From positions 1 to 26,215 of the IMG/VR virus record IMGVR_UViG_3300032282_001425: 26,215 bases of DNA; one strand, 5' to 3'. Every line of letters starts with the position of its first letter. Position 1 is the stretch's first letter. Positions 1,047-22,473 of this stretch are shown here, one piece after another. Source of the stretch: a virus. The notes below the pieces were generated by a model. It did no database searches. It saw only the letters and a program-made list of their open reading frames with translations, and was not told the origin of the DNA. A program made the translations under genes and the position numbers.

Positions 1047-1277
1047 ATGTCATATTCTATTATATCACATAATGACTCAGAAAAAAAATTTACTATAAAC
1101 CATAAAGGTTATAGTATTGATATTAATTACCCTAGTGACGTTGATTTATTTTCAGATATACTTCCTGAAAATTTAGAAACTATTATTTCAGGAATTACTG
1201 TTTCATATAATGATATGCCTGATTATACTGAACCAGAAGTAATTACGCCTACACCCGTTCATGGAGACTGGAGATAA
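1047..1277 (+). CDS. Small protein related to the chaperone N-terminal domain
   Basis: 76 residues, starting two bases after the previous stop and sharing its last base with the start of the next gene (TAATG), so the three genes look translationally coupled. Its start, SYSIISHNDSEKKFTINHKGYS, follows the same pattern as TYRIISFDEQSGQIQIEV in the preceding protein, including a later Ile-rich strand and a conserved-looking proline near residue 29. It looks like a stand-alone copy of that N-terminal domain without the DWTQLPD region. The C-terminus is acidic and proline-rich (TEPEVITPTPVHGDWR). Function unrecognised; a tail-fibre-associated accessory or chaperone role is an inference from context. 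Confidence 0.55.
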   Translation: MSYSIISHNDSEKKFTINHKGYSIDINYPSDVDLFSDILPENLETIISGITVSYNDMPDYTEPEVITPTPVHGDWR

Positions 1278-2608
1278 TGAAATTTTATATACCAAAAAGT
1301 TTATCACGTGGAAATACAGATATTTCTGCAACAAAACTTGGTAATTTTTTAAGTTCTGTTGGATTAGATTATACTACAGACGATACTGATTCTACTATAA
1401 CTAATTATATTTTATTTAGAAATCCAGATCCAACTCCACCAATAAACAATTTAACAGAACTTCAAAATTATATTGAAGTTCATGGAATGAACACGTCAAA
1501 TTATCTAAATGAAAAATTTGGTATTTCAGGATCACATAATTTAAATAATAAATTTGTATTACATCAACATTTAGAGTCTTTAAATCTTCCAAATATACCT
1601 ACATCATTTCCTAAAACAGAGAATGAAATAAGAGATTTTATTACTGCTAATGGTTCAATCATATGTAAACCAGTTTTGTATTATGGCTCAAAAGATCCAT
1701 TTGCTGATATTAAAGGAAATTTATTATCCATATCTGGAGATTTTAGAGATTCATATTTAGAAACTGTAGATCAAATTTCTACTACAAAGCATTTCTATAA
1801 TTACTATACTTCATATGAAGCATTTGCTGCGGATGTTGATGTAACTGAATTTTTAAAGATTCAAAATAGTACTAAAACAACATTAACTCATCAATGTATT
1901 TTCCAAAAAGATTTTGGTGATTCATATACTCACTTTATAGTTGTTGGTTATGTAAATGGATCTAATGAAATTATTCATGAGCCGTTTATTGTAATGAATA
2001 GATCAAATGAAGAAGTTCCTGATGATCTATATAATAAACTACCAGGTGCATTAGTTGCTAATGATAAAATAAATAATCATTCAAAACAAAAGATATCATT
2101 TGATTTTAATTCATTAAGTGAAACTGATATTGTTAATATTTTAACTACTGGATGGCATGTTCAAGGTTCTGATCCATATGATATGGAGAATAAATTAAAA
2201 TCATTATTTAGTGCCTCAAATACTAAGAATACGTATTTTACTGCTCAGGGATTTATTGATTCTGACGGAAATCCAGTTATATTTGATGTATCAACAGGAA
2301 AACTATTTGCTGCTACAAGACGTGAGTGGATTACTCCAGAACAGCATCTAAATAGATTTAAGTTTATACATGATTTAGAGCATGATGCTTCTAAATTATC
2401 AAATACAACTTATAGATTCTGGTTTGAAGGAGTTATGCCAAATGGTTTAAATCAATCATTGGTTGATTTAGCAGCTTCATTAAATATTGTTATTCTATTA
2501 CCAATAGGAGATGGTTATACACGTGGACCATTTACTGCTTATGGTAATACTAAAGAAGAAGTTGCTGCTCACGTAAAACAATTTTTAATTGCCTGCGCTG
2601 CAACATAA
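1277..2608 (+). CDS. ATP-grasp-like protein
   Basis: 443 residues. The middle reads like an ATP-grasp ligase: a Lys at 92 followed by a helix and NLPNIPTSF (about 103-111), then SIICKPVLYYGSKD (127-140), whose Lys131 matches the nucleotide-binding 'vvKP' lysine, then QCIFQKDF and a strand pair around 205-240. A late segment, GFIDSDGNPVIFDVSTGK, resembles the metal-binding end of the fold but lacks the usual Glu/Asn pair in clear form. ATP-grasp enzymes join a carboxylate to an amine or thiol through an acyl phosphate. The substrate is not visible. The start overlaps the preceding stop by one base. About 80 residues at each end are unassigned. A degenerate or non-catalytic version is possible. 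Confidence 0.5.
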   Translation: MKFYIPKSLSRGNTDISATKLGNFLSSVGLDYTTDDTDSTITNYILFRNPDPTPPINNLTELQNYIEVHGMNTSNYLNEKFGISGSHNLNNKFVLHQHLESLNLPNIPTSFPKTENEIRDFITANGSIICKPVLYYGSKDPFADIKGNLLSISGDFRDSYLETVDQISTTKHFYNYYTSYEAFAADVDVTEFLKIQNSTKTTLTHQCIFQKDFGDSYTHFIVVGYVNGSNEIIHEPFIVMNRSNEEVPDDLYNKLPGALVANDKINNHSKQKISFDFNSLSETDIVNILTTGWHVQGSDPYDMENKLKSLFSASNTKNTYFTAQGFIDSDGNPVIFDVSTGKLFAATRREWITPEQHLNRFKFIHDLEHDASKLSNTTYRFWFEGVMPNGLNQSLVDLAASLNIVILLPIGDGYTRGPFTAYGNTKEEVAAHVKQFLIACAAT

Positions 2609-2611
2609 ATA
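2604..2611 (+). promoter_or_regulatory. Probable late promoter box CATAAATA
   Basis: One mismatch from TATAAATA, overlapping the stop codon of the ATP-grasp-like gene and lying 31 bases upstream of the SpeD start. The 33-base intergenic gap contains nothing else except AAGGG near 2632-2636, a good ribosome site for ATG 2642. Confidence 0.45.
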
Positions 2612-2641
2612 GTTTACTATAATTTATTATGAAGGGTTATT

Positions 2642-2998
2642 ATGTCTTATTTTGGGTATCACTTGATGTTGGATTGCAGTGGATGCAATGATGGTATTAA
2701 AAGTAGAGAGAATATCTACAATTTTGTAAAAGAATTAGTCAAACGCATCGATATGACCGCACACGGAGAGCCTGTGATAGAATATCTTCTACCAGGCGAT
2801 CCTAAAGAAGGTTACAGCATGATGCAATTAATCACAACTAGTAATATCGTCGGTCATTTTATTGAACCAAATTCAACTGCATATTTTGATATATTCAGTT
2901 GTAAAGAATATGATATTCAAGTAGCTCAAGATGTAGTTAAAGAATTCTTTGGTCCAACTAAGATTAGAGTTAATTATATAACCCGTCATGCAGATTAA
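2642..2998 (+). CDS. speD: SpeD-type S-adenosylmethionine decarboxylase family protein
   Basis: 118 residues, the size of bacterial class 1b proenzymes. These self-cleave before a Ser that becomes the pyruvoyl cofactor; the classic product is decarboxylated SAM for spermidine synthesis. Family landmarks visible: YHLMLDCSGCN at 6-16, the internal TTSNIVGHF at 65-73, and YFDIFSC at 81-87. Ser59, Ser67, His72 and Cys87 have the same spacing as the Thermotoga catalytic set Ser55, Ser63, His68 and Cys83. The residue before the processing Ser is Thr66 instead of the usual Glu, and the following His is Asn68. Such changes occur in relatives reported to decarboxylate ornithine or arginine, so the substrate is open. 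No spermidine synthase is in the window. AAGGG lies 6 bases upstream of the start. The 3' end overlaps the desaturase gene. Confidence 0.8.
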   Translation: MSYFGYHLMLDCSGCNDGIKSRENIYNFVKELVKRIDMTAHGEPVIEYLLPGDPKEGYSMMQLITTSNIVGHFIEPNSTAYFDIFSCKEYDIQVAQDVVKEFFGPTKIRVNYITRHAD

Positions 2999-3845
2999 AA
3001 TATTTAATGATAGTCCAAAAGACTCTCTTCTAATATTAGTAACAGCATTCGCTGTTACCTATCCATTCGTATTTGTATATTATTTCCATCAGATGAGTTG
3101 GATCTCCGTATTCTTTTCGTCTTTAGGATTAATATTTTCTGCTATGTGGCATTTCAATACCACAATGCATTATCATATTCATCGAGCAATATTTACAAAT
3201 AAACTAGTTAATGAGATATTTGAATCTATTTGTACTATTCCGATGATGATTAGTTATGAAGAATATAAAAGTGTTCATATGGTTCATCATAAATGGGTAA
3301 ATGATCCGGTTGTGGATGGTAAATTATACGATCCAACTTCTACATTTAGAGGTGGTAAGGATGGAAAAGAAGAAGGATTCTTATCATATGTCTTTGGAAC
3401 TCCAATAAGATATTTCTTAACTATTGACGGGCCAGATCTACATAGACCCGTTCCATTTAAAAATCCTAAAAAATTAGTGAGAGAATTGTATGTTAAAATA
3501 GCATTCTTAATCATATATTCTATTATTGACTGGAGATTTATTCCTGTATTTTTAATATCAATGTACTTCGCGTGGGTATTTAATATGATGTTAACATATT
3601 CAGAACATCATAGTGCTACAGACTGGCAAGATCATACCAGAGATTCTTGTTCATGTTATGGTAAGATATATAATTTTTTAACCTTTAATTCTGGATATCA
3701 TCAAGAGCATCACTACAGACCAGGAGCACATTGGACTCAACTTCCAAGTTTAAGAAAAGAACTTCCTGCTGATAGACATATAGTTAAAGGCACATTGGTT
3801 TTTAACAATAATCCATTCACTCTACCATTTTCAAAGATTAAATAA
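2988..3845 (+). CDS. Membrane fatty acid desaturase
   Basis: 285 residues, integral membrane. All three histidine clusters of the diiron desaturase family are present: HYHIH at 61-65, HMVHH at 97-101 and HQEHH at 238-242, with extra histidines at 207-208 and 248. Hydrophobic segments are at about 13-33, 38-55, 168-180 and 185-203, matching the two-hairpin topology. Such enzymes insert a double bond into an acyl chain using O2 and ferredoxin or cytochrome electrons. Acyl-lipid versus acyl-CoA substrate and the bond position cannot be told. The ATG lies 11 bases inside the end of the SpeD gene, which suggests translational coupling; no separate ribosome site is seen. The last base is shared with the next start. 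A related hydroxylase or ketolase is a less likely alternative. Confidence 0.85.
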   Translation: MQIKIFNDSPKDSLLILVTAFAVTYPFVFVYYFHQMSWISVFFSSLGLIFSAMWHFNTTMHYHIHRAIFTNKLVNEIFESICTIPMMISYEEYKSVHMVHHKWVNDPVVDGKLYDPTSTFRGGKDGKEEGFLSYVFGTPIRYFLTIDGPDLHRPVPFKNPKKLVRELYVKIAFLIIYSIIDWRFIPVFLISMYFAWVFNMMLTYSEHHSATDWQDHTRDSCSCYGKIYNFLTFNSGYHQEHHYRPGAHWTQLPSLRKELPADRHIVKGTLVFNNNPFTLPFSKIK

Positions 3846-5074
3846 TGATTAAAATTGACTATAAAACCCTAACACACGATTCAAGATTAGGATTTTATGA
3901 AATAGGTAATAAAAAATATTGGGACAAAGCTAGTGCTGTTATGGAAGGCACAAAGATGGGTCTTGGATACAAAGACCTTTATTGGAACTTTAATGATGAG
4001 GACTTTTCAAAGTGGAATTGGTCTGAAGAGCCATCAGGAAGCATTAGACAATATTATCATACCAGAGCTCGGCAACTCAGAGAAAAATATGATTATATAA
4101 TTATAAATTGTTCCGGTGGAGCTGATTCATCTACAGCATTATATAGTTTTCTTCATCAAGGATTACATGTAGATGAAGTATTTGTCAGACACGCAGGTGA
4201 AGGGACAAATAAGTATAAATCAACTAATAAAGAGTTTGATGCTAGTAATGAACATTCTGAATTTGAGTATGCTGGATTACCTCTATTAAATTGGGTTAGA
4301 AAAGTAAGTCCTAAAACTAAGATTACCATACACGATTTTAGTTTAGATATTATTAAAGATGACCTAACATGGGATGAGAATTTTATTCATTGGTGCGGCG
4401 ATTATGTTACTCCTGGGTGTGTTGTTAGATATTCCCATGCGTCAAATAAAGATAGTTTAAATACATTTGATAAAGGTAAAAGTATCTGCATTTTATTTGG
4501 TACTGATAAGCCTAGAGTATCTATTACTCCCGACGGTGATATAGTTACATTCTTTGGGGATAAGGCCGTTTCTTCGGCTCTTCCAGCAGCTGTAAACAAT
4601 GGTTACACTAATACTCATGTAGAATTGTTTTATTGGAGTCCTGATGCGGTACCACTGATGATAAAACAATGTCATCTAATTAAAAAATGGTTTGAGATGC
4701 CTGAGAACAGAAGATTACAATACATGCTTAATCCAAACTGGCTATTAAACTCATTAAATAGAACATTGTATGAAAATATAGTTAAAGGTATTATATATCC
4801 TGACTATGATTTATCAATATTTCAATGTAATAAACCAGTAAAATCAGTCATGCAAGAATGGGATTACTGGATGAATGATTTTAAAAATACTGAGGGATTT
4901 GGTACATTCATGAGAGGATTATCACATTTATATAATAATACAAATAAAGACTTCTTTAAAGTTCCAGACATTGGTATTCATGACCAACAGATGTCTGAGT
5001 TAAACTGGGAATATAAAATTTGTCCTAGTAAACAGTACCTTATTGGTAAATTGAATAATTCTTTAATTTACTAA
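3845..5074 (+). CDS. PP-loop ATP pyrophosphatase (asparagine-synthase-like fold)
   Basis: 409 residues. The segment YDYIIINCSGGADSST, at about 82-97, is a PP-loop (SGGxDS) at the end of a beta strand, as in N-type ATP pyrophosphatases such as asparagine synthase, QueC, GuaA and tRNA thiolases. These activate a carboxylate, amide or base by adenylation. No glutaminase domain precedes it, so the nitrogen or sulfur donor would be free or supplied elsewhere. The N-terminal 80 residues are aromatic-rich (WNFNDEDFSKWNW). The long C-terminal half (about 250-409) is unrecognised. It starts on the last base of the desaturase gene. Substrate unknown; a modified metabolite, lipid head group or nucleotide are all possible. 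Confidence 0.65.
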   Translation: MIKIDYKTLTHDSRLGFYEIGNKKYWDKASAVMEGTKMGLGYKDLYWNFNDEDFSKWNWSEEPSGSIRQYYHTRARQLREKYDYIIINCSGGADSSTALYSFLHQGLHVDEVFVRHAGEGTNKYKSTNKEFDASNEHSEFEYAGLPLLNWVRKVSPKTKITIHDFSLDIIKDDLTWDENFIHWCGDYVTPGCVVRYSHASNKDSLNTFDKGKSICILFGTDKPRVSITPDGDIVTFFGDKAVSSALPAAVNNGYTNTHVELFYWSPDAVPLMIKQCHLIKKWFEMPENRRLQYMLNPNWLLNSLNRTLYENIVKGIIYPDYDLSIFQCNKPVKSVMQEWDYWMNDFKNTEGFGTFMRGLSHLYNNTNKDFFKVPDIGIHDQQMSELNWEYKICPSKQYLIGKLNNSLIY

Positions 5075-5105
5075 TAATACATTTTTAGTATATAATTAAT
5101 ATATT

Positions 5106-6398
5106 ATGATTAGTTTTTTATTGATTGTTTTATTTTCACTGATAATTGGTGCTTTAACTGGATTACTTCCAGCCCTACCAGTTTATACTGGAACTATTAT
5201 ATTATACTATTTTGGTCATAATATGCCATTAGAACACCTGATGGTATTTTGGTTAGTTGTTATTTCAGGAAGTCAATTCTTTGGATCTATTTCAACGATA
5301 GCAACTAAAATACCAGGTGAAGAAAGTTCTACTGTGTATTTAAAAGATATTGATTCTCTATCAATTAATCAACGAAATGCTTTACTTTATGATACTGCTT
5401 TAGGAAGTATGATTGCAGGTGTACTTTCCTTATTAGTTGTTTATGGAATAGTATCATATACTTCATCTAATGTATTATTCTTTAGCTCATTAAATTTCCA
5501 AATTATTTGTTATACGTTAGCGTTCTTAAGTTTTATATTATTAAATAAAAATATTATAATGACTATTTGTCTTGTTTTACTTGGACTTGCATTAGGACCA
5601 AAAAATAACTATGCACTTCCGGCTGCGTGGTTTGATTTTGTATCATTATTCCATGGATATACGTTCTATATGGTTATTCTTGGAATAATGATTATTCCAC
5701 AATTATTAACTAATGAGTATGATGCTGTAAATGATCATATAAAAGTAATTAATAATAAATCATTCAGTATAATTCAAGGATTTAAATCTTCAATTATAGG
5801 ATCTATTGTTGGATTAATTCCTGGCCCAAGCGCGTTTCTAGCTTCTTTAACTGCATACAAGACAGCCGGAACAGATATATCTAAAAAAATCATTGCCGCA
5901 GAAACAGCTAATAACGCATCAGTTATAACATGTGCTATGCCTTTGTTACTATTAGCATTACCTATAAATCAGAACACTCTAATATTCTCGAATATCATGG
6001 ATATAAGGTCTATAAATATAATTGAAGCAATTTTTCAAACGAGTTTTGTCTCAGGTTTATCAGTATTACAATTAGTAATACTAACATGTTTAATGTGCAT
6101 GTTTATCTATTTTTGGTTAAGCACACATCTAATTGATTATTATGTGTCATTTGTAAATAAGCTTCATGGTAGAATGAAATATATTTTACTGGCTATTATA
6201 GTATTGCTAATTGCATTAGATATTAGTACTGCTGAAATATCATTATATAATTATGTTATTTTGTTGAGTTTCTTTTCATTTATTGGTATATTATTAAAAC
6301 TTTGCAGCATTAATCCTTTGCCACTATTATTTGCCATGATTCTAGGTGATAAGATGGTATGGGTTTACATGCAATTTTTAACAATTCATTTTGCATAG
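5106..6398 (+). CDS. tctA: TctA-family tripartite tricarboxylate transporter permease
   Basis: 430 residues, hydrophobic throughout with roughly ten or more membrane spans. TctA signatures in order: GALTGLLPALPVYTG at 15-29, FGSISTIATKIPGE at 59-72, IGSIVGLIPGPSAF at 231-244, AAETANNAS at 264-272 and ALPINQN at 284-290. The two glycine/proline motifs and the ETANNA motif define the large permease of TTT systems, which import citrate or other carboxylates with Na+ or H+. It is shorter than the usual 500 or so residues, mostly at the C-terminus. No TctB-like small membrane protein follows; the next gene is a TctC-like binding protein 9 bases downstream. A sigma70-like TATAAT at 5091-5096 precedes it, but no clear ribosome site is seen. 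Confidence 0.85.
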   Translation: MISFLLIVLFSLIIGALTGLLPALPVYTGTIILYYFGHNMPLEHLMVFWLVVISGSQFFGSISTIATKIPGEESSTVYLKDIDSLSINQRNALLYDTALGSMIAGVLSLLVVYGIVSYTSSNVLFFSSLNFQIICYTLAFLSFILLNKNIIMTICLVLLGLALGPKNNYALPAAWFDFVSLFHGYTFYMVILGIMIIPQLLTNEYDAVNDHIKVINNKSFSIIQGFKSSIIGSIVGLIPGPSAFLASLTAYKTAGTDISKKIIAAETANNASVITCAMPLLLLALPINQNTLIFSNIMDIRSINIIEAIFQTSFVSGLSVLQLVILTCLMCMFIYFWLSTHLIDYYVSFVNKLHGRMKYILLAIIVLLIALDISTAEISLYNYVILLSFFSFIGILLKLCSINPLPLLFAMILGDKMVWVYMQFLTIHFA

Positions 6399-6407
6399 GA
6401 GTAGTAC

Positions 6408-7238
6408 ATGAAAAAATTATTGATTATTATGGGTTTATTAAGTGGGGTTGCTCAAGCTGAAATTACTGTAGTTAATCCAAGTAATAAAGCTAGTCCAGCC
6501 ACGGTATTTGCAACTTCATATAAAGATGCTTTAGGACAAGACACTAAGTTCTATCAAGCTTCTACATGTGAAGATGCACAAAAGGTTTTTGATAAAACTA
6601 AAGACGCTGTTATGGTCTATAATAGTTCTATTGAATTTGCTGCTAGAGATAAAGGGTTAAACTGCGGTCTAAAAGCCAATGCAGTTAATACTGTTTATAT
6701 TGGTAAGCAATATATGAGTTTATGTACATTAAAGGATAGTGGTGTATCGTTAACTAATGATAAAATCACTTTAGGTATGACTTCAATGTATGCAACTAAA
6801 ACCCACCAGGCAGATCTAAGATCAGTTGGTATTAATACAACTTTAGTACCATACGGCGGCAGTAAAGATATTGTGACTGCAGTTCTTAATAAAGATATCG
6901 CTGCCGGATATATTTCATCATCTATGGCTGATAAAAACAAAGATCTAGTGTGTTCTTATCAGACTAATCCAGACTTACCCAATTATATAGGCAAATCTTT
7001 TAAATTAAAGGTTCCAGATTTTAGAATTACGTATGTAGTCTATACTAATACTACAGATCCTAAAGTTATGGATAGTCTTTTAGCTGCTCAGTCTAATCAA
7101 TCATTTTCTGAATATTTAAAGACTTCTGGCACTATTTCTAATTGGACAGTACGTTTATCTGATATAGATGCTGTGAAATCTTATGTCGACAAATTATTTG
7201 ATAACTGGAGCTTCCATAGTGAAATTTTCACTAATTAG
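6408..7238 (+). CDS. TctC-like periplasmic solute-binding protein
   Basis: 276 residues with a clean Sec signal peptide (MKKLLIIMGLLSGVAQA, predicted cut after Ala17), so it should reach the periplasm. The segment TLVPYGGSKDIVTAVLNKDIAAGYISSS (about 145-172) matches the TctC/Bug family region where a VPY-Gly-Gly loop precedes an amphipathic helix and the second-lobe strand. Four cysteines (54, 86, 106, 182) could form two disulfides, which is unusual in this family. The TATA-box-free start has AGGAG at 6397-6401, overlapping the TctA stop, so it is the second gene of the TctA unit. TctC proteins capture a carboxylate and hand it to TctA/B. Homology is weaker than for TctA; another type 2 periplasmic binding protein is the alternative. 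Confidence 0.65.
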   Translation: MKKLLIIMGLLSGVAQAEITVVNPSNKASPATVFATSYKDALGQDTKFYQASTCEDAQKVFDKTKDAVMVYNSSIEFAARDKGLNCGLKANAVNTVYIGKQYMSLCTLKDSGVSLTNDKITLGMTSMYATKTHQADLRSVGINTTLVPYGGSKDIVTAVLNKDIAAGYISSSMADKNKDLVCSYQTNPDLPNYIGKSFKLKVPDFRITYVVYTNTTDPKVMDSLLAAQSNQSFSEYLKTSGTISNWTVRLSDIDAVKSYVDKLFDNWSFHSEIFTN

Positions 7239-7251
7239 TAGTTCGGTATCT

Positions 7252-7259
7252 TATAAATA
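7252..7259 (+). promoter_or_regulatory. T4-type late promoter box TATAAATA
   Basis: Perfect octamer in the 60-base gap before the TRAP binding protein gene, followed by a leader of about 35 bases that ends in AAGGA (7284-7288) 10 bases before ATG 7299. With the terminator at 8245-8271 it frames a single-gene late transcription unit. Confidence 0.75.
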
Positions 7260-7298
7260 GATATAGAAGGTATTCTTATTCAACAAGGACTGATAAAA

Positions 7299-8237
7299 AT
7301 GAAAAACATCAAATGGGTATTAGCCCACGAACCAATTGAGTTGTTTATTCGTGCAGCTGAGGTATTTGCTAAAGAAGTAAATGCTAAGGCACCTGGTCAA
7401 CTTAACATTGAAGTTATGACTTTAAGCGAGTATGCTGATAAGTATAACAATGGTGTTGCCGTTGACAAACATAGCTTAGTAGACTTACTTGATTCTGGTA
7501 AGATCGAAATGAGCCAAACTTACACAGTTACATTAGGTGAAATCGATAAAGATTTCCAAGCATTAGATCTCCCATTCTTATTTAAAGACCATGACCACGC
7601 AGCTAGAGTATTTGAAGGCGAAATCGGTCAAAGCTTATTAGCTGGTTTAAGCAAAAAGGTTGGCGTTAAAGGTCTAGCATTTACTTATTCTGGTGGTTTC
7701 CGTGTTATGCCTGGAAACGAATCAGTTAATCGTATCGAAGATTTAAGAGGTATGAAAGTTCGTACAAGCCATAGCCCAGTAGCTATTGATACATTCAAAG
7801 TATTGGGTGCTGATGTAGTTCCTATGGAAATTGAAGAACTATCTGACAACTTAGCTGACGTTACTGTTACTGTTGGTGAATCTACATATCCAAGAGTTTA
7901 TGCTTTAGGTCAAGATAAAGTATCTAAAGTAGTTAATCATACAGAACATAGTTTATTCTTAACAAGTATTCTAATTGGCGAATCATTCTGGGAAACTTTA
8001 AGTCCAGAGTTACAAGCAATTGTTAGCGATGCAGCTCTTGCAGCGGCTAAATATGAACGTGAATTAAGTGTTGAAGATGTACGTTTAACACGCGAACGTT
8101 GCCAAAAAGATGGTATTGTTTTAAATGATATGTCTAAAGAAGAACAAGCTAGATTCAAAAAAGCAACAGAATCTATCTATGATAAATACAAAGACTACTT
8201 CACACCAGGTTTAGTTGAAGGAATCTTAGCACACTAA
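7299..8237 (+). CDS. TRAP transporter solute-binding protein (DctP family), no signal peptide
   Basis: 312 residues. The mature DctP fold starts at once (IKWVLAHEP, then AAEVFAKEV, then QLNIEVM). Further landmarks are LDLPFLFKDHDHAARVF at 89-105, DLRGMKVRTSHSPV at 148-161 with Arg155 matching the carboxylate-clamping Arg of the family, and TVGESTYPRVYALG at 191-204. These proteins normally bind C4-dicarboxylates, sialic acid or other organic acids in the periplasm. There is no signal peptide: the upstream frame holds no hydrophobic stretch and reaches a stop at 7254, so a missed start is ruled out. No DctQ or DctM membrane subunit is in the window. A perfect late promoter upstream and a strong terminator downstream make it a stand-alone late gene. 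Codon use resembles the structural genes. A virion or cytoplasmic role is possible. Confidence 0.85.
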   Translation: MKNIKWVLAHEPIELFIRAAEVFAKEVNAKAPGQLNIEVMTLSEYADKYNNGVAVDKHSLVDLLDSGKIEMSQTYTVTLGEIDKDFQALDLPFLFKDHDHAARVFEGEIGQSLLAGLSKKVGVKGLAFTYSGGFRVMPGNESVNRIEDLRGMKVRTSHSPVAIDTFKVLGADVVPMEIEELSDNLADVTVTVGESTYPRVYALGQDKVSKVVNHTEHSLFLTSILIGESFWETLSPELQAIVSDAALAAAKYERELSVEDVRLTRERCQKDGIVLNDMSKEEQARFKKATESIYDKYKDYFTPGLVEGILAH

Positions 8238-8244
8238 GTAAGAT

Positions 8245-8271
8245 GGGCGGAGCAAATCCGCCCTCTTTTTT
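8245..8271 (+). terminator. Rho-independent terminator after the TRAP binding protein
   Basis: Perfect 7-bp GC-rich stem GGGCGGA (8245-8251) and TCCGCCC (8257-8263), with loop GCAAA, followed by TCTTTTTT. It lies 8 bases after the stop codon. Confidence 0.9.
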
Positions 8272-8293
8272 ATTATTTTGAGGAGTATTATAC

Positions 8294-9895
8294 ATGAGTA
8301 GGGTACAGATCCATACAGTAGATCAGCCAAATTCAGATACAACAACATTTGTTTTATCATGTAACAGACTTGATGTCCTAGATAAAACTCTCCAATCATT
8401 TTATGCAACAAGAGACTACATAACCAAGATGGTTATCGTGGATGATTCTGCTGAGCCAGGAATCTTTGAAACTCTAGTTGAAAAATATGGTAAGGATTGC
8501 GATGTTATCTGTTTCCCAAGGAATCGTTCACAATGGTGGGCAATGGATTTCATGGTATCTTACTGTGACTCAGACTATATATTCTATCTTGAAGATGACT
8601 GGGAAATGCTTAAACCAGGTTATCTTAATCAATCAAAAACAATCTTACAAAAATACCGTGATGTTGGTGTAGTCGATACTTCATGGCGTACATTCGAATT
8701 TCAGGGTATAGACTCATATCACAAGGGTCTTGTTGATGATATGTTCTACTGGAAGAGACCATGGAAGATTACCGATACTCATGTGGCTTGGCATGCATGG
8801 GTTGGATCTCCTAATCTTAGACGTCGTGACGATTTAATCATGTTAGGTCGTGTAGAGAAATGGCATAATGAATGGAACATCGATCGTAAGTTTACTGCAT
8901 TAGGTTTTAAAGGTGTATTCCTTAACGGAGAATATTCAAGACATCTTGGAGATAAATGCTCTAGAATGGAAGGTAAACGACCAGATGATTCTAAAGTTCC
9001 ATATGACTTCTATCCAAAAGAAGTTCTAGCAAATCGTAGAGCTCCACTTATTAACTATAGAGAGATGGATTGGATCTATGAATATCCAGCTGATGTAACA
9101 CTAGTTACTATGGCTCTTGATATATCTCGGGGCGATCGTTCTTTTGAAGAACATTATATCAAAGGTCTAGATCATTTACTTTCTGTTCGTAATCCATTAG
9201 TAGTATATGCAGATCCTAAGTATCATGACTATATTAGAAAACGCCGTAAAGAATTAAGTATTGCAACATCTAATAATCGAGTAGAATGTCGTGCAATAAC
9301 TTTACAGGATCTAGAACATAGAACAAAATTTAAAGAGATCCAAGATATTATATCAAGTGATAAATGGATCGATCAGTCTGGTTGGATTAAAGGTTCTGCC
9401 TTAACTAATCCATATTATATCCCTCTTACTTTAATTAAGAATGAGTTGCTTGCTCAGATCGCTAATTCAAATCCATTCAATTCTAAACGATTCTATTGGA
9501 TTGATTCAGGTATGTCTAATAGCTTTGGTGTAACTGAACCTATTAAGACGTGGAACTTCTTATTCTTACCTAAAGATAAGTTCTTCCTTACTTCATATCC
9601 GTATCAGACAAATTCTGAGATCCATGGATGCAATATAAATATTATGACAGATATCGTTGGTAGAAAACCAGAATACGTTTGTCGTGCAACATTATTTGGT
9701 GGTTCTAAAGATCAGATTACAGAGTTTAATAAGTATTACTATGATGTAATTACACAAACTCTAGATCAAGGAACTATTGGTACAGAAGAAGCAATATTTA
9801 CTATGGTGGAGATGATGAATCCTGACTTAGTAAATCGTTATGCAATGCCAAATGGCGATATTAAAAATTATTTGAACACTATAAGGAATAGATAA
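8294..9895 (+). CDS. Two-domain glycosyltransferase: GT-A domain plus HtrL/YibB-like domain
   Basis: 533 residues. The N-terminal part (about 15-250) is a GT-A fold: [16 protein letters not shown] at 18-33, VIVDDS at 47-52, and the sugar-nucleotide/metal motif YLEDDW at 98-103. The C-terminal part (about 265-520) has [17 protein letters not shown], a YIKGLDHLL helix, PLVVYAD and YWIDSGMSN (401-409), the pattern of the HtrL/YibB (WlaTC-like) putative glycosyltransferases of LPS and capsule loci. The protein probably makes two successive sugar transfers in the cytoplasm. Start supported by GAGGAG at 8280-8285, eight bases upstream. No promoter box is seen after the preceding terminator, so read-through or an unseen promoter feeds it. 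It shares its final base with the next start. The sugar and acceptor are unknown. Confidence 0.8.
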
Positions 9896-21351: not shown

Positions 21352-22473
21352 ATGGCATTAGCAACTCATATCGTAAAGAATACAAATAAAGAGACTATAA
21401 TTTCAGTTAGTGGAGCAAATGATAATGTATCACTAGCATTGACTGGTTTAGTATCTTCAGATCAAGTATTAGGAGCAACTGGTGCTTCTGATTATCATGC
21501 TCCTGTAGTTAATGTTGCTGCGGTACTTACTTCAGGAACTCTTGGTTCTTCTATGTCACTTAGACGCGGTGCAACTGGTGCTACAGGTCATCTTGTATTT
21601 GCTGGTGCTCCAGAAAATTCTCCAACCGTACAGTTTAACCAATATGGTTTTACTGAAAATGGTCAAAGTGATAAAGATATCCTTGTTACACATGCTGGCG
21701 CTTCTGGTGCTAACGTTACAACATGGGTAGTACTACACAAACAAGAAGGTTACTTCTCTAAAGTTGAGTATGAAAAATATGGTGCTTATGACGACGAAAC
21801 ACAAGTTGGCGCATTGGAAATCCCAGGTGCTCCAAATACAATTCCAGCTGGATTGTATGACTTACCAGCTCCAGGATCTGGTACATATGAAAGTGCTCAA
21901 TCGTTAACTATGACTTCAGCAGGTACACCATACGTTCCAGGTTCAAGTGTAACATCTGTCTCTAGTGAGACAGCTGGTCTATGGCGTAAGAAATTTGTTG
22001 GTAACTTTGGTACATCTGCAGGATCTGGCAATGATGTTACATTCTGCCGTACTCAACCGAGTTACTTCGGTCAGGCTGATACATATGTTGGATTTGGTCA
22101 ACAAGATCTTGATTCAGAAAACAACTATACTCTCGAATGGGTTGGCTACTTTAAAGCTCCTAGTTCTGGAACTTACAACTTCTGGGCAAATGTTGATGAT
22201 GACGTATACTTCTGGATCGGTACAAATGCTTTAGATGGTAACAATACAAGCTCTAATGCTCATTTATATACCAATAACTCAACACACACTAAGAACACTA
22301 ACTCTGCAACATTAACTGCTGGTCGTTATTATCCAGTTCGTATCCAATTTGCAGAATACAGTGGTTCTGAAAACATGCAGATCCTATGGGGTAGAACTAC
22401 TGACACAACTGGTTCAGCGGGTTCTGACGTATCTGGTGTTTGGGTACATAATCACGCAACTAGAGGATTCTAA
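21352..22473 (+). CDS. Virion protein with a C-terminal PA14-like carbohydrate-binding domain
   Basis: 373 residues. The C-terminal domain (about 207-365) is PA14-like: an opening WRKKFVGNF, the central YTLEWVGYFKAPSSGTYNFWANVDDDVYFWIG (259-290) with the DDDV calcium/sugar-binding motif at 282-285, and TLTAGRYYPVRIQFAEYSGSENMQILW at about 320-346. PA14 domains in yeast adhesins and bacterial glycosidases bind glycans. The N-terminal 190 residues are Gly/Ala/Thr-rich beta structure (THIVKNTNKETIISVSGANDNVSLAL). Its place between the core genes and gp21 suggests it is a head decoration or other virion protein. Functionally it could resemble Hoc-type outer capsid proteins that help stick to surfaces; that is inference. 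Confidence 0.75.
   Translation: MALATHIVKNTNKETIISVSGANDNVSLALTGLVSSDQVLGATGASDYHAPVVNVAAVLTSGTLGSSMSLRRGATGATGHLVFAGAPENSPTVQFNQYGFTENGQSDKDILVTHAGASGANVTTWVVLHKQEGYFSKVEYEKYGAYDDETQVGALEIPGAPNTIPAGLYDLPAPGSGTYESAQSLTMTSAGTPYVPGSSVTSVSSETAGLWRKKFVGNFGTSAGSGNDVTFCRTQPSYFGQADTYVGFGQQDLDSENNYTLEWVGYFKAPSSGTYNFWANVDDDVYFWIGTNALDGNNTSSNAHLYTNNSTHTKNTNSATLTAGRYYPVRIQFAEYSGSENMQILWGRTTDTTGSAGSDVSGVWVHNHATRGF

Follow-up and report, generated by a model that had tools for sequence, protein, structure and literature searches.

A DctP-family solute-binding protein without an export signal as a conserved cargo protein of T4-like phages, encoded in the neighbourhood of PP-loop ligases

Introduction

In tripartite transporters, the binding protein is by definition a component that acts outside the inner membrane. 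What, then, may such a protein do when a phage encodes it without an export signal? This question is raised by a gene for a DctP-family protein in a T4-like phage represented by IMG/VR record IMGVR_UViG_3300032282_001425, of which we analysed a stretch of 26,215 nt (hereafter the window). The nearest named records to this phage are Pelagibacter phage Mosig and Methylophilales phage Melnitz. We address the question through the fold and pocket of the protein, its transcription unit, its phage and bacterial homologues and the genes that accompany it.

Results

The protein matches PF03480 (DctP/SBP_bac_7) over residues 17-297 with an E-value of 2.3e-54 and a score of 185 bits, against a curated cut-off of 23.4. 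Its AlphaFold model (pLDDT 96.6) covers the entire bilobed fold, aligns with the TRAP binding protein DctPAm (7bbr) over 298 residues at 2.2 A (Z 36.9) and finds 4p47 as its top Foldseek match (E 6.5e-29). An initial annotation, made from the sequence, had placed the start of the DctP fold almost at the N-terminus and described the ligand arginine as kept. The model bears out the first point, being full-length with beta-strand 1 at residues 2-8. As to the second, Arg155 is the counterpart in the alignment of the conserved TRAP arginine (Arg147 of SiaP), which acts as a carboxylate selectivity filter and is found in 96.8% of family members (PMC4646407). Pfam score, full-length TRAP fold and carboxylate arginine all place the protein in the DctP family.

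Arg155 is retained in 42 of 43 signal-less proteins of types 1 and 2. Residues W6, H10, H100 and FTYSGG (128-133) are common to signal-less and signal-bearing forms, with S131 varying once; one pocket would thus serve in two compartments, which suggests similar ligands. The signal-less protein can probably still bind a carboxylate. Several phages additionally carry long signal-less paralogues with an insertion (type 3; L018 8980-9999, L042 3213-4319, L051 3251-4330, and L201). Arg155 is absent from these long paralogues, the carboxylate arginine being missing in the three that were aligned.

The gene was proposed to form a late transcription unit of its own, closed to a longer N-terminus by a stop codon, and both proposals hold (Table 1). 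The in-frame TAA sits within the T4-type late promoter TATAAATA, and the unit continues with a ribosome-binding site and ends in a strong terminator whose hairpin (8245-8263), followed by a T-run, has a folding energy of -18.6 kcal/mol (z -3.1). With a late promoter just 5' of it, the gene has what marks a T4-type late gene. There are nine TATAAATA sites in the window, exclusively on the plus strand, where 5.3 were expected over both strands; the count by itself is weak evidence because 6 of 100 shuffled windows reach nine. Seven of the nine sites lie 15-68 nt 5' of gene starts (p 2e-7), and the promoter is found at most 160 nt upstream in 14 of 41 non-redundant phage homologues. Codon use had been said to resemble that of virion genes. 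The log ratio of +0.070 is indeed virion-like (gp23 has +0.115), but the neighbouring glycosyltransferase GT1 is equally so (+0.062), and the DctP gene is therefore not singled out as a virion gene.

Table 1. Features of the DctP transcription unit and of the nearby cargo genes (window coordinates)
Feature	Position	Strand	Basis
PP-loop ATP pyrophosphatase, asparagine-synthetase/beta-lactam-synthetase-like	3845..5074	+	SGGADS motif, model
TctA-type membrane subunit, possible carboxylate supplier, same cargo block	5106..6398	+	PF01970 1.2e-35
Secreted protein, signal peptide MKKLLIIMGLLSGVAQA (by eye), adjoins TctA	6408..7238	+	no family match
T4-type late promoter TATAAATA, 47 nt 5' of ATG	7252..7259	+	sequence
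In-frame TAA, closes any longer N-terminus	7254..7256	+	sequence
Ribosome-binding site AAGGA	7285..7289	+	sequence
Signal-less DctP/SBP_bac_7 solute-binding protein, 312 aa	7299..8237	+	PF03480, model, N-terminus
Intrinsic terminator, 7-pair stem + T-run	8245..8270	+	folding energy

The protein begins with MKNIKWVLAHEP, a stretch that lacks a hydrophobic core and leads directly into the first beta-strand; neither the signal peptide nor the lipobox of an exported TRAP receptor is present. A single-sequence search identified 18 phage loci and a profile search 457 IMG/VR relatives; we retained the best 80 of these. The signal is absent from every phage homologue read (about 80, the best 80 of the 457), and the start of each phage coding sequence lies a few residues ahead of (K)I(R/K)WV(L/I)AHEP. 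Those additional DctP copies in large records that were read are signal-less too. A median dN/dS of 0.195 among phage homologues indicates purifying selection. Such a survey had been proposed in the initial annotation, where signal-bearing close relatives were named as the sign of an artefact; none were found, the signal-bearing relatives being bacterial and 27-47% identical. Because all phage homologues read are signal-less and no close relative bears a signal, a cytoplasmic reading is favoured.

Two trivial accounts of the missing signal were rejected. A start-site artefact is ruled out by the stop at 7254 together with the identical start in all close phage homologues. Longer open frames 5' of the usual ATG occur in L028, L042 and L083 (a bacterial contig); we treat the hydrophobic upstream extensions of L028 and L083 as chance, and the L083 record (504 kb), in which the neighbouring genes are phage-like, is possibly a large phage that was mis-binned. 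Likewise, the idea that phage genes lose their signals generally is excluded by phage receptors that retain them, namely the DctP beside DctQ/DctM in L053, the TAXI-type receptors of L068 and L075 and the TctC proteins of L002, L004 and L018. Since the ordinary binding proteins of the same phages keep their signals, the loss is specific to this DctP family, and the receptors of L053, L068 and L075 argue that phages retain signals where export is needed. The protein is a complete and conserved member of the DctP family, but no component of a TRAP transporter as defined.

A GTDB genome scan for bacterial relatives yielded 26 loci. Clear signal peptides mark the Bdellovibrionota forms (e.g., L087, L089 and L090); a signal-less set (L084, L085, L088, L091 and L100) comes from Bacteriovorax and gammaproteobacterial MAGs, and two MAG assemblies contain both kinds. 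In most of the signal-less set, the DctP gene comes after genes for an MFS transporter and an uncharacterised small protein. The phage proteins all fall, with most of the signal-less bacterial ones, into one clade of the tree (SH-aLRT 89) beside the signal-bearing Bdellovibrionota proteins, and the signal label needs two changes. Two signal-less rows (Nannocystaceae and Planctomycetota) fall outside this clade, and some branches are long.

Three genes 5' of the DctP gene, outside its transcription unit, the window encodes a PP-loop protein; the linkage of such proteins to DctP, described here, is new relative to the initial annotation, which had missed it. The model of this protein (pLDDT 82.7) resembles asparagine synthetase B (AsnB, 1ct9; Z 11.8) and also beta-lactam synthetase; no close homologue was found in 50,697 phage records. 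Sequence comparison of the PP-loop A and B profiles with the PDB gave either no match or one confined to the PP-loop motif and its vicinity. Members of the same family as the window protein are found next to signal-less DctP in other phages as well. More broadly, SGGxDS PP-loop proteins are found in the flanks of 64 of 81 phage DctP loci, often adjacent, and a DUF2061 membrane protein (PF09834) in 33 of the 81, often directly 5' of signal-less DctP. The small membrane protein at 7708-7962 of L015 is an example of the latter. Large phages (L022, L023, L025, L045 and L069) hold several different PP-loop families within one cargo region.

To quantify this linkage, T4-like controls (n = 28) were fetched via their capsid protein. 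Of 46 DctP-bearing records, 43 gave a match to the PP-loop A profile, usually next to DctP; 35 of these matches have E < 1e-20 and the remainder are weak hits to PP-loop B or C, at the level of the motif. The three records that gave no match are fragments, one of them the twin of the window with a PP-loop B gene. PP-loop A is present in 2 of the 28 controls: the sole control that contains DctP, where the two genes lie side by side, and one of the 27 DctP-free controls (Fisher p 2e-15 overall). Among contigs of at least 35 kb the proportions are 28/30 for DctP-bearing records versus 1/8 for controls (p 2e-5), with an uncertain effect size because the controls are mostly short, sample the capsid region and under-sample cargo. 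The link is one of neighbourhood, and DctP and PP-loop genes could merely be common cargo of large phages.

Asparagine synthetase B and beta-lactam synthetase activate carboxylates, and PP-loop ligases use ATP. Our preferred reading, held tentatively, is that the protein is a cytoplasmic carboxylate holder tied to the phage PP-loop ligases. We infer that DctP, made late and probably in quantity, would remain cytoplasmic in the infected cell and close on a small carboxylate via Arg155, with Arg135 and family-specific residues forming the rest of the predicted pocket. As a stoichiometric holder it might hand this ligand to the AsnB/beta-lactam-synthetase-like PP-loop ligases, or keep it for them, and the ligases would then activate the carboxylate with ATP. 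The acid could enter through the phage TctA, a phage TRAP system or the host's own transporters.

The main rival, which we judge unlikely, dispenses with a partner enzyme: the protein would be a cytoplasmic sponge that sequesters a carboxylate metabolite or signal of the host, in a regulatory or defence-related role. A late, probably abundant and stoichiometric binder with a conserved pocket would suit this role, as would the two or three divergent DctP copies of several phages, as if different ligands or variants were bound. However, we saw no association with defence genes, a late gene comes into play after the early responses of the host, and the strong PP-loop linkage would be left without explanation.

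We give still less credence to an enzyme, or enzyme subunit, built on the binding-protein fold. It could account for polar residues that are invariant yet lie outside the usual pocket (H10, H100, R199, T129 and Y130) and for the repeated company of adenylating enzymes, that is, PP-loop proteins in phages and an AMP-binding gene near some of the bacterial signal-bearing forms. Yet neither the fold nor the carboxylate arginine departs from what ordinary binding proteins have, and the polar residues are not specific to the cytoplasmic form, since signal-bearing periplasmic relatives keep them.

We next consider the transport genes near DctP. The initial annotation had stated that membrane subunits are lacking. 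This is correct for DctQ and DctM, neither of which was found in the 26-kb fragment, but a TctA-type subunit had been overlooked (Table 1). The secreted protein that adjoins it has no match in Pfam or PDB and is thus TctC-like by position and size only; its homologue comes after TctA in L071. Of the 46 homologue records, 9 contain DctM and 5 contain TctA. In L053 a complete TRAP system (DctQ, DctM and a signal-bearing DctP; 4802-7800) immediately precedes the signal-less DctP. The same order is seen in the viral contigs L042 and L050-L052, one contig being 244 kb long. Near gp17, L068 (8093-10361) and L075 (12199-14461, minus strand) encode a TAXI-like signal-bearing receptor and a DctM-domain protein.

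These transport genes would lend themselves to an extracytoplasmic action, in which the protein, released by lysis or exported independently of a signal, feeds a TRAP or TctA transporter. Most homologue records nevertheless carry neither TctA nor DctM, L004 (228 kb) and L020 (345 kb) among them, and the TRAP systems that are present have a signal-bearing binding protein of their own (L053 and L068); we regard such an action as improbable, to about the same degree as an enzymatic one.

The position of the gene bears on the choice between cytoplasm and virion that the initial annotation had offered. L204 (G047), whose virion DNA is 95.8% identical, has no DctP at the same site or anywhere in its 42-kb record; a glycine-rich ORF directly before glycosyltransferases occupies the site. 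In Pelagibacter phage Mosig the site holds 2OG oxygenases, ferrochelatase and heme oxygenase. Because both relatives hold other genes there, the DctP site is a variable cargo site, and the gene lacks the constancy of a T4-type virion protein, which relatives sharing the virion genes would also carry. Among phages the genomic position of DctP varies widely and its companions are metabolic, above all PP-loop ligases; in L006-L014 it lies inside the structural block. Of the two roles offered, the cytoplasmic one is favoured by the missing signals and the other is weakened by L204. A virion component presenting a binding site is very improbable, for all that the late promoter, the virion-like codon use and the structural-block position in L006-L014 would fit, given its absence from L204, its varied positions and metabolic companions, and a codon use common to GT1. 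We read the protein as a conserved accessory (cargo) protein of phages rather than as part of a transporter.

Other cargo was seen around these sites. Positions 1277-3845 of the window encode an ATP-grasp-like protein (recognised by eye, no Pfam match), an S-adenosylmethionine decarboxylase and a fatty acid desaturase, for which polyamine or lipid chemistry is possible. An HtrL/YibB domain fused to a family 2 glycosyltransferase lies at 8294-9895, and a GLEYA/PA14 domain protein at 21352-22473 has portal and prohead genes on either side. At the edge of the cargo block, a PF16778 tail assembly chaperone-like domain (529-1044) marks the end of the tail fibre region. In L204, positions 4674-9582 of the corresponding cargo site, before gp13, encode a radical SAM protein, a TonB-dependent receptor and another TctA.

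Discussion

The holder reading can be widened, with more reserve than we attach to the reading itself: it is possible, if rather doubtful, that a periplasmic family of carboxylate-binding proteins has moved to the cytoplasm and become coupled to AsnB-like PP-loop ligases, often with DUF2061, that convert acids to amides or other products. If true, this would be a previously undescribed module by which host or imported organic acids are captured inside the infected cell, and transport receptors would have been re-used by phages as cytoplasmic metabolite binders in at least 457 IMG/VR stretches. It provides a lead on the use of organic acids by uncultivated aquatic T4-like phages, with DctP and the PP-loop protein as a defined, testable pair.

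We found no paper dealing with DctP in phages or with TRAP binding proteins of the cytoplasm, and no close DctP homologue from cultured phages in 50,697 phage records, where the best matches (about 26%) were in unannotated or bacterial-like records. The same phage family, or fragments of it, is represented by PHROG phrog_31178 (unknown function) and by the BFVD DctP/TeaA entries A0A6J7WI33 and A0A6J7WKL0 from uncultured Caudovirales; these names derive from homology only, and function, context and the missing signal are not described. A phage-encoded tctA on a SUP05 viral contig (PMC4164917) is alike as a carboxylate transporter gene in viral cargo, but it concerns the membrane subunit alone, known by a domain match alone, with no signal-less binding protein described.

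Closer counterparts are bacterial. The Bacteriovorax and gammaproteobacterial MAG proteins (L084, L085, L088, L091 and L100) are likewise signal-less and 46-50% identical, but belong to type 2 (WVIAHEPLSLF) and have no PP-loop gene in the loci seen. The Bdellovibrionota WVLAHEP-type proteins (L087, L089, L090, L093, L095, L096 and L098) share the subfamily and the pocket motif, whereas they carry a signal peptide, are 39-47% identical and sit in a bacterial chromosome context. Finally, the phage protein shares with DctP-type TRAP binding proteins (SiaP, 7bbr and 4p47) the full-length fold, the Arg147 equivalent and 23-30% identity to solved members. It differs from them in having no signal and no DctQ/DctM in the window, and in belonging to a subfamily with a motif of its own, WVLAHEP...FTYSGG.
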